Source: Glycomyces sp. L485
GTDB lineage: Bacteria > Actinomycetota > Actinomycetes > Mycobacteriales > Micromonosporaceae
Assembly (NCBI RefSeq): GCF_022548875.1
Contig: NZ_JAKZEW010000001.1
Coordinates: forward strand, 62,264 to 126,263
Direction of reading: 5' to 3'
Length of the DNA stretch: 64,000 nt
Shown here: piece by piece, positions 23,130-26,015 of the stretch
Layout of the letters: each line of letters starts with the position of its first letter
Position numbering within the stretch: the stretch's first letter is position 1
Made by a program: the position numbers and the translations under genes
Notes under the pieces: generated by a model
The model's input: only the letters and a program-made list of their open reading frames with translations
The model's database searches: none
Told to the model about the DNA's origin: nothing

Positions 23130-23652
23130 CTAGGCCTGCCCCTCCTTGAGCGATCCGGGTCGCAGACGATTCGATCTGGGCTCGGCGGCGGTGACGACCA
23201 CGGCCAGACTGAGGAAGTCTGTGACGATGTGGCGCTGCGGCCCTTGATCTTCTTGCCTACACCAATGCCCTGGTAAGACTCGGGGACGTCGGACGAGGTC
23301 TTGACCGGCTGGGCGTCGGCGATCGCCGAACTCGGGCGGGGCGCACGTTTGGAGTGCTTGCGTCGAGCGGTGGGCAGCGCGTCGTTGATTCGCTCGGTAA
23401 GGCCTTCGTTCTTCTAAGCGGCGCAAGAGTAGTAGACCGTTTGCCAGAGTGGGAAGTCGTGGGGCAGGCGGGCCGGCAGCCGGTCCGGTTGAGGTACAGG
23501 ATCGCGTTCACCATCTGGCGCAGGTCATGACCTGGCCGTTGATCCCTGCCCGCTCGGCTCAATCGGCCCGCCAGGCGGAGGCGATCGGCTCGATCAACGC
23601 TCGCCGCTCAGCGGAGAGATCACCGGTATATGCAGGGCGTTCGCCGGTCATA
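23130..23652 (-). pseudogene. IS5-family transposase remnant, frameshifted and truncated
   Basis: Starting from an ATG at 23652 (MTGERPAYTGDLSAERRALI) the frame stops after about 30 codons. A second frame continues with HDLRQMVNAILYLNRTGC, and a third carries the DDE-domain section RHIVTDFLSLAVVVTAAEP. These pieces in order match an IS5-type (IS427-like) transposase, so at least two frameshifts and a missing C-terminus separate it from function. No intact terminal inverted repeats were identified. Confidence 0.75.
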
Positions 23653-23662
23653 TCAAGCAAAA

Positions 23663-23727: not shown

Positions 23728-24042
23728 TTAGCGGCTCACGGCCAGCTTGGTCTCGTTGAGACCCTGCGCGGCCTCGACCTCGCCGGTGGCGTCGCCGAAG
23801 CGCGACAGCGCCCGCAGCGTCCACTTGCCCGGCGCGGCGAAGAAACGGAACTGGCCGCCCTCGCCCGTCACCACCTCGGCGGTGAACTCGCCGGAGCCGT
23901 CGAGCAGTCGCACGTAAGCGCCCTGCACGGCTTCGCCCTCGTCGTTGACGACCGTACCGGTCAGCACGGTCTCCTTCTCGATGTCGACCGACGCCGGAAG
24001 GGCCGTGTCCTGTGCGGGTGCACCGCATCCGTCTGCAGCCAT
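23728..24042 (-). CDS. DUF1416 family protein
   Basis: The 104-residue product begins MAADGCGAPAQDTALP and contains TVLTGTVVNDEGEAVQGAYVR and GQFRFFAAPGKWTLRAL, as in the actinobacterial DUF1416 family, a small beta-rich domain with a conserved cysteine near the start. It is invariably found behind a thiosulfate sulfurtransferase gene in actinobacteria I know of, and here follows it by 30 bases. A role in sulfur transfer with that enzyme is inferred from the pairing. Confidence 0.9.
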   Translation of the reverse strand: MAADGCGAPAQDTALPASVDIEKETVLTGTVVNDEGEAVQGAYVRLLDGSGEFTAEVVTGEGGQFRFFAAPGKWTLRALSRFGDATGEVEAAQGLNETKLAVSR

Positions 24043-24072: not shown

Positions 24073-24924
24073 TTACTTCGTGCCGGGCTCGTCGCCGAGC
24101 GCGATCGGCACGCCGACGAGCGAGCCGTACTCGGTCCACGAACCGTCGTAGTTCTTCACGTCCTCGTAGCCGAGGAGCTCGCGGAGCGCGAACCAGGTGT
24201 GGCTGGAGCGCTCGCCGATGCGGCAGTACGCGATCGTCGACTTGTCCTCGTCCAGGCCGGCTTCGCCGACGTAGATCTCGCGGAGCTCGTCGTTGGACTT
24301 GAAGGTGCCGTCCTCGTTGGCCGCCTTGCTCCACGGCACGCTCAGCGCGGTCGGGACGTGGCCGGCGCGCTGGCTCTGCTCCTGCGGCAGGTGGGCCGGG
24401 GCCAGCAGGCGACCGGCGTACTCGTCGGGGGAACGGACGTCGATGAGGTTCTTGGTGCCGATCGCGGCGGTGACCTCGTCGCGCAGCGCGCGGATGGAGG
24501 CGTCCTGCGGCTTGGCCACATAGGTGGTGGCCTCGCGCTTGACGACCTCGGTGGTCACCGGGCGGGCGTCGAGCTCCCACTTCTTGCGGCCGCCGTCGAG
24601 GAGCTTGACGCTAGCGTGGCCGTACAGCTTGAAGTACCAGTACGCGTAGGCGGCGAACCAGTTGTTGTTGCCGCCGTAGAGGACGACGGTGTCGTCGTTC
24701 GCGATGCCGCGCGCGGAGAGCAGCTGCGAGAACTGCTCCTGGTTGACGAAGTCGCGGCGGACCGGGTCCTGGAGGTCGTCCTTCCAGTCGATCTTGACGG
24801 CGCCCTTGATGTGGCCGGTGTCGTAGGCGGAGGTGTCCTCGTCGACTTCGACGAACACCACGCCCGGGGTGTCGAGGTTCTCTTCCGCCCAGTCGGCGGT
24901 TACCAGCACGTCTTCACGAGCCAT
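24073..24924 (-). CDS. Thiosulfate/3-mercaptopyruvate sulfurtransferase (two rhodanese domains)
   Basis: The 283-residue product has two rhodanese domains. The second carries the catalytic cysteine near residue 233 in IAYCRIGERSSHTWF; the first has an inactive loop around VVLYGGNNNW. The CRIGERS loop is the actinobacterial thiosulfate sulfurtransferase type (often named CysA or SseA). It moves sulfane sulfur from thiosulfate to a thiophilic acceptor in the cytoplasm. The ATG at 24924 follows AGGAGAGAA. A cysteine-containing leader peptide lies 204 bases upstream. Confidence 0.92.
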   Translation of the reverse strand: MAREDVLVTADWAEENLDTPGVVFVEVDEDTSAYDTGHIKGAVKIDWKDDLQDPVRRDFVNQEQFSQLLSARGIANDDTVVLYGGNNNWFAAYAYWYFKLYGHASVKLLDGGRKKWELDARPVTTEVVKREATTYVAKPQDASIRALRDEVTAAIGTKNLIDVRSPDEYAGRLLAPAHLPQEQSQRAGHVPTALSVPWSKAANEDGTFKSNDELREIYVGEAGLDEDKSTIAYCRIGERSSHTWFALRELLGYEDVKNYDGSWTEYGSLVGVPIALGDEPGTK

Positions 24925-25128
24925 GTTTGTTCTCTCCTGAACGTAAATGTGACTGAAGTTTGATTTCACTGAGTTCGCAAGGAGGGCCCGGCGCTTGAGC
25001 GCGGAGAAGATCGAGCAGGGATCATCCAGGCGGAAGCTTGCCGTGGACGGGGATTGAAGCCTTGCTCTAAGATTTTGCGCACGCCTGGGCCGCATAGCGG
25101 CGACTGTCCTGCCTGGGGGACGAGCCGC

Positions 25129-25206
25129 CTAGGGCATTCGACAGAGCGTGGTCGCGATCGTGCAGAAGTCGATCGCACGCCTCTTGGTGAGCATCGGCTT
25201 GCGCAT
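25129..25206 (-). CDS. Cysteine-type regulatory leader peptide upstream of the sulfurtransferase
   Basis: A 25-codon frame from an ATG at 25206 to a TAG reads MRKPMLTKRRAIDFC and then a short Thr-rich stretch ending TLCRMP. The LTKRRA(I/V)D.C.....LC.. pattern is that of the small leader peptides found before sulfur-assimilation genes in Streptomyces and mycobacteria, where cysteine codons are proposed to sense cysteine supply. A TAGCGT -10-like element lies seven bases before the ATG, suggesting a leaderless start. Its stop is 204 bases before the sulfurtransferase ATG. Confidence 0.75.
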   Translation of the reverse strand: MRKPMLTKRRAIDFCTIATTLCRMP

Positions 25207-25286
25207 GGGCAGAACGCTAGCAGACTTCCCGCCCCCTGGCCACATGCCTTCTCGGCATGCGGACTGTGGGCTGTCGCGCAGCGCCG

Positions 25287-26015
25287 TCAGACTAGGGCCA
25301 CGTCCGGCGCCGAGCCGGAGATCTCCACGTTCCCCTCAGCGATCGCGATCTCGGTGAGCTGAATGCCCCACGGCAGCTCCGGCAGGTCGATCACGGTGGA
25401 CATCTCGTCTCTGACCCGTTCGACGAACGCGTCCGAGCCCGGCGGCAGGCTCTCGGTGAGCGCCTCGACGATGTCCGGCGAGAAGCGGATCGCGCCTTCG
25501 CCCAGTTCGATCGCCCCGGTGCCCTCCACCTCGATCTCGAACCCGGCGGCCTCCGCGACGGCCGTGACCGAGGCGGTGCCGTCGTCGTTGACGGTCATGT
25601 CGTAGCCGGTGCGCTCGCGCAGCAGCGTCTCCAGGGACTCGACCGAGACGGTGCCCGAGACGTCGACCCGCGCGGCCGTGATCTCGGAGGTGCCGTCGGC
25701 GATCTCGCGCCAGTCGGCGTCCACGTCGTGGGCGACCATGTCCAGCGAGGGGAACGTCAGGCCCTCGGCGCCGACCTCGCGCATCTCGATGTCGATCTGC
25801 TCGAACTCGCCCGACCAGGCCTGGGTGAGGAACGGCCAGCCGTGGATGGTGACGTCGGGGCGATGGTCGGAATAGGCCCCGTGCTCGGCGGCGGTGTCGG
25901 CCACCTCGGTCGCGACGCGCCGCTCGGCCATCGCGTTGGCGATCCGGTCACCAAGCGCCACAAGGGCGACGACGATGACAAGGGGGACGAGGATGCGGCG
26001 GAGGATCTTGCCCAC
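25287..26015 (-). CDS. DUF2993 (LmeA-like) protein
   Basis: The 242-residue product begins with a single N-terminal helix (residues about 5-20) and then the DUF2993 domain, recognisable in DVTIHGWPFLTQ, DIEMREVGAEGL and GIQLTEIAIAEGNVEISG. Relatives such as mycobacterial LmeA sit at the cell envelope and affect lipomannan elongation. The start is taken as the GTG at 26015; a much longer frame upstream is a shadow of the next gene. It is 14 bases downstream of the membrane protein gene. Confidence 0.85.
   Translation of the reverse strand: MGKILRRILVPLVIVVALVALGDRIANAMAERRVATEVADTAAEHGAYSDHRPDVTIHGWPFLTQAWSGEFEQIDIEMREVGAEGLTFPSLDMVAHDVDADWREIADGTSEITAARVDVSGTVSVESLETLLRERTGYDMTVNDDGTASVTAVAEAAGFEIEVEGTGAIELGEGAIRFSPDIVEALTESLPPGSDAFVERVRDEMSTVIDLPELPWGIQLTEIAIAEGNVEISGSAPDVALV

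Follow-up and report, generated by a model that had tools for sequence, protein, structure and literature searches.

The window analysed here, a stretch of 64,000 nucleotides from Glycomyces sp. L485, carries on its minus strand a gene (24073..24924) for a CysA2-like sulfurtransferase with two rhodanese domains (PF00581 in two stretches, 4.7e-35; the match to NF008557 lies below its cut-off). The gene has a Shine–Dalgarno sequence, AGGAGAG, at 24932..24938 and is followed on the same strand by that of a DUF1416 protein (23728..24042; PF07210, 5.5e-38), the second gene of the presumed operon. Just 3′ of the DUF1416 gene, at 23257-23660 of the minus strand, two overlapping frames look by eye like the broken N-terminus of an IS5-type transposase (LIEPIASAWRAD and DLRQMVNAILYLNRTGC). 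Upstream of the sulfurtransferase gene, the minus strand contains at 25206..25129 a frame of 25 codons and a stop (ATG to TAG) that encodes MRKPMLTKRRAIDFCTIATTLCRMP; 204 nt lie between its stop and the ATG of the sulfurtransferase gene at 24924. A leader peptide of this length and at this distance, with the motifs LTKRRAIDFC and LCRMP, had been predicted from the sequence of the window, and the frame is present as described, on the minus strand. Further 5′ lies an LmeA-like gene for a phospholipid-binding protein (25287-25910, minus strand; PF11209). Distant actinobacteria, too, have an LmeA-like gene (judged by eye) 5′ of the leader; it recurs before leader and sulfurtransferase gene in loci of family f4 and in those of the mycobacterial type.

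Likely start site and conservation of the leader frame

The sequence in front of the leader ATG reads TGC-TAGCGT-TCTGCCC-ATG. The -10 element thought to look leaderless in the original prediction is thus an extended one, TGC-TAGCGT (25214..25222, minus strand), which ends 7 nt before the start codon and is kept in all 22 Glycomyces genomes. Throughout the window, only 29 of 3378 ATG or GTG codons (0.9%) have a TAnnnT ending 5-9 nt before them. Among 104 distinct orthologous leaders, counted after a prior filter for 4-10 nt, the spacing is 6-8 nt, and 74 of these carry a TGn. A consensus scan for sigma-70 promoters returned none, such scans being poorly suited to GC-rich actinobacteria. This layout suggests that the transcript begins at or beside the AUG and that the frame is translated leaderless; the spacing is compatible with the leaderless transcripts of the polycysteine attenuators. 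An in-frame ATG at 25245, which would give a peptide of 38 aa, lies upstream of the -10 element and is mostly missing in relatives, and 25206 is therefore the likely start. A different arrangement is seen in six paralogous leaders (L246, L254, L264, L266, L283 and L298, two genomes' worth of loci), where the usual TAnnnT spacing gives way to a TAGGAA-like word 10-20 nt upstream of the start.

Among the short frames of the window the pattern RRx[VIL]D-x8-C is confined to the leader, its three matches being nested starts of the same frame. All 22 Glycomyces genomes searched, the one analysed here included, possess the sulfurtransferase gene, and in every one a near-identical leader peptide with the same -10 element and gene order lies 197 to 307 nt upstream of it. 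Loss of the peptide in close relatives, which had been named as an observation that would speak against a leader, was not encountered, and this retention in 22 of 22 genomes confirms at the sequence level that the frame is real, far beyond chance.

Conservation extends well outside the genus. We sampled 126 sulfurtransferase loci in the source family and in named actinobacteria and found a leader with both motif and promoter at 117. The nine others comprise three where a gene that by eye is DUF4395-like lies immediately upstream, five in Nocardioides and its family and one in Saccharothrix. Searched with a profile built from 15 leaders, 313 of the 393 genomes of the class gave a match; they belong to 92 of 123 genera. 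Across 89 distinct orthologous leaders no change is seen in the residues L, T, R, R, D or the terminal Cys, while Arg and Asp are spelled by various synonymous codons, which argues for selection on the amino acids. Such strong amino-acid conservation might also befit a small protein acting in trans, an idea that we consider highly improbable given the fixed position before sulfur genes, the occurrence of paralogues before several different genes and the codon-level constraint at the last Cys described below. One paralogue is encoded in the same genome outside the window (G000:C129:41552-41611, minus strand, locus L059); it has the same layout (RRHVDFC-RVFSAA-C), lies 5′ of a sulfite-reductase-like gene and has UGU as its last Cys codon. 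The leaders L217-L226 of family f7, for example MSSTWLTKRRAVDHCRVRSSLCRMS, have His or Asn after the Asp, a position occupied by Leu, Phe or Tyr in others, and their last Cys is still UGU.

Relation to known cysteine leaders

By its sequence and position the leader is a homologue, in variant form, of the mycobacterial pre-cysA2 leader, of which LTKRRAVDLCRVAGCCCCCCSC is one of the named orthologues. At this same locus a small ORF with a Cys cluster shows ribosome occupancy in M. smegmatis (Shell 2015, PMC4633059). Later papers credit Canestrari 2020 with cysteine-responsive attenuation through contiguous Cys codons. The Glycomyces leader and the family of the Cys-rich leader Ms5788A (NF042933) have in common the downstream gene, the LTKRRAxDxC core and the leaderless-type promoter layout, and the position directly upstream of a sulfur gene, here a CysA2-type sulfurtransferase gene, is that required of the polycysteine attenuators. 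Mycobacteria, however, have a run of Cys codons, whereas the Glycomyces leader contains only Cys15 and Cys22, separate from each other and the last one UGU. We call it a variant because the polycysteine tract is absent and because its score against NF042933 (E=2.8e-9, 36.5 bits) does not reach the curated cut-off of 45. The RRxxD core is also shared with NF042934, a model of putative leader peptides (cis_reg_atten) which the paralogous leaders resemble and against which the peptide obtains 17.2 bits, under the curated cut-off of 27. The original remark that such a frame is easily missed by annotation thus needs qualifying: NCBIfam models for the class do exist, but this leader falls below the cut-offs of both. 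No Rfam family matched the leader at a useful score.

Short Cys leaders identified by runs of Cys codons have been predicted before actinobacterial cys operons, terminators being absent and Rho being suggested instead (Seliverstov 2005, PMC1262725). The Glycomyces leader is like them in preceding sulfur genes and in having no intrinsic terminator, and unlike them in its lack of a Cys-codon run. No cysteine leader is among the leader peptides listed by a transcriptome-based survey of S. lividans. Cysteine sensing with few Cys codons has a parallel in uORFC-8-2, the cysS leader of Rhodobacterales (PMC8632094), which belongs to another phylum and differs by its tandem and mostly UGC Cys codons and its intrinsic terminator. 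Homology, gene order and conservation make the assignment of the frame as a cis-acting cysteine leader peptide well supported.

The terminal cysteine codon

The original prediction proposed stalling at the Cys codons when cysteine is short. A cysteine leader it appears to be, but the two codons are not equivalent: the second one, Cys22 (UGU followed by C; 25141..25143, minus strand), looks like the sensor, while Cys15 (UGC) seems replaceable. Of the 149 distinct leaders that have no Cys run, 148 spell their terminal Cys as UGU (these are counts of distinct sequences, not of independent events), and the sulfurtransferase genes of the same set of loci have UGC for the catalytic Cys without exception (171/171). 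The first Cys codon, where there is one, is UGC in 97 of 104 leaders, and in 25 window genes only 9 of 90 Cys codons are UGU. Where a leader has a Cys run, either codon may stand at the same position (14 UGU, 15 UGC). Since the leaders were searched for by protein sequence, the search itself exerted no selection on codon choice. The first Cys is replaced in two orthologues and in most of the paralogous leaders before other genes; the terminal one stays. Among 50 paralogous leaders, drawn from ten genomes of three families plus the source genome, 48 have a Cys 13 residues past the first R, a spacing partly favoured by the search profile, and in 47 its codon is UGU. We found no published account of this pattern in the literature searched. 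The cysteine leader before cysA2 was already known; the UGU rule for its terminal Cys is new here.

The context of the codon is similarly constrained. The base 3′ of the UGU is C in 140 of 149 leaders, and where the residue after the terminal Cys is not Arg its codon still starts with C in 26 of 35 cases; for the first Cys the figure is 3 of 12 (Fisher p=0.005). The pattern of a single UGU as sensor is strong, and its presumed cause is that wobble reading together with an unfavourable 3′ neighbour would leave this codon most sensitive to scarce Cys-tRNA. The preference for C irrespective of the encoded residue might equally point to a constraint at the RNA level, through pairing or a UGUC-binding factor and not slow decoding, and in Glycomyces the UGU bases are indeed paired within the hairpin described below. 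We think an explanation of this kind rather unlikely: the flanking RNA varies between families, and base pairing alone, which would permit UGC with a matching partner, is an unlikely cause because that combination is almost never seen (once in 149).

The invariant RRxxD residues raise the further question of whether the nascent chain takes part. With the UGU in the A site, the D would lie 8 and the RR 11-12 residues from the P-site residue, and one may imagine that RRxxD in the exit tunnel is needed for the pause, peptide and codon sensing cysteine jointly. R, R and D are invariant in the 89 distinct orthologues despite their synonymous codon variation, and their distance to the UGU Cys is kept in 48 of 50 paralogues, which often lack the first Cys; but the profile used to collect the paralogues partly favours that spacing, homology alone could preserve RRxxD, and the motif could partly serve an RNA hairpin within the frame (columns 4-26, invariant in Glycomyces). 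In the E. coli arrest peptide TnaC, whose output is linked to Rho, conserved nascent residues stand at a similar distance from the stall site; TnaC, on the other hand, senses free tryptophan at a stop codon, and action of the nascent chain is hypothetical for the Glycomyces leader. A joint role of peptide and codon, which would extend the attenuator explanation developed below without excluding it, is therefore put forward tentatively. An equally tentative generalization would be an actinobacterial class of leaders in which a single UGU, through wobble and the following C, is the sensor and RRxxD 9 to 13 residues upstream turns slow decoding into a regulatory stall in the exit tunnel, the mycobacterial polycysteine leaders being one elaboration of it.

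Leader RNA structure and a model for attenuation

Codons 19-25 and the stop region of the leader are predicted to pair with the downstream sequence AGTCGCC...GCGGCCCAGGCGTG in an extended hairpin (25080..25150, minus strand). RNAalifold found this Glycomyces pairing, with AGTCGCC...GCGGCCCAGCGTG, unprompted, and 97% of cells pair compared with 24-49% in slid versions. Covarying stems in relatives had been suggested as a check; they lend the hairpin weak support because most pairs never vary, and the two-sided changes, seen in 2 of 28 pairs, are matched by 35 of 500 shuffles. The apical stem (25129-25123 with 25105-25099, minus strand) starts with the final base of the stop codon. In the folding model the value for this stem, P4, is 0.88 in the free RNA, 0.84 with the UGU in the A site and 0 once a ribosome occupies the stop codon, the last of which raises an alternative hairpin from 0.05 to 0.45. 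When all families are taken together, the first 60 nt 3′ of the UGU show slightly more structure than shuffled sequences (mean z -0.60), which does not hold for the following 60 (0.27). Micromonosporaceae leaders such as L017 and L074 have a long conserved structured stretch (GTCGCAC...GTGCGAC, CGCCCGGCAGCGGCG) between leader and sulfurtransferase gene that differs from the one in Glycomyces.

The idea that stalling alters the folding of the leader thus holds, in the model, for the hairpin at the stop codon and fails for the Shine–Dalgarno sequence. This bears on translational attenuation of the mycobacterial type, where the stalled ribosome would block structures that otherwise hide the Shine–Dalgarno sequence of the next gene, as published for the polycysteine leaders according to citing papers. 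The Shine–Dalgarno sequence is about 29% unpaired (mean of 22 species), and complementarity in the sequence indicates a possible anti-Shine–Dalgarno arm, CCCTCCTTGCGAAC (24973..24986, minus strand), which is weak since shuffled controls reach 36%. Access to the Shine–Dalgarno sequence, however, remains near 0.3 in the folding model of the 22 species, whether there is no ribosome or one at Cys15, Cys22 or the stop codon, and hence the release expected of a polycysteine attenuator is not seen; the distance from the leader to the Shine–Dalgarno sequence is, moreover, 204-307 nt in most. Translational attenuation of this kind seems doubtful to us. A classical transcription attenuator would need an intrinsic terminator, and a consensus scan of the leader, poorly suited to GC-rich actinobacteria, detected none. 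In all 22 species the leader contains more C than G, its C-richness being moderately above background.

We propose a ribosome-mediated attenuator that responds to cysteine and controls the sulfurtransferase-DUF1416 operon, with the frame as its leader peptide and one weak Cys codon as its sensor, a reading that we regard as very probable. It is founded on the frame itself, its promoter spacing, conservation and gene order, the codon bias and a hairpin that, in the folding model, depends on where the ribosome stands. With plentiful Cys-tRNA, the ribosome would reach the stop codon and cover the 5′ arm of the stop-codon hairpin, and expression would be low. When Cys-tRNA is scarce, the ribosome would pause with the Cys22 UGU in its A site and leave the hairpin in place, and expression would rise. 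A single weak codon, read by wobble and followed by C, would in this way take the place of a run of Cys codons. For the output step our first guess is Rho-dependent termination in the C-rich leader, the alternative being control of initiation. The transcription start, translation of the frame, pausing, a response to cysteine in the stated direction and the output are the conjectural steps of this model, and several observations speak against it: there are only two Cys codons, Shine–Dalgarno access is constant in the model, no terminator was found, covariation is weak and the C-richness is moderate. Taken as a whole, the original prediction is partly supported.

The 25-residue leader, widely conserved across actinobacteria, is probably a cysteine sensor. 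Should the codon rule hold, a synonymous exchange of UGU for UGC in a leader ought to alter cysteine sensing, which would be a very cheap way to learn how codon choice sets the sensitivity of an attenuator. The rule also prompts the question of whether the nascent chain must assist where there is just one sensor codon. Were the rule true, many short actinobacterial frames now known as putative leader peptides would become recognisable as cysteine sensors and could be linked to their operons.
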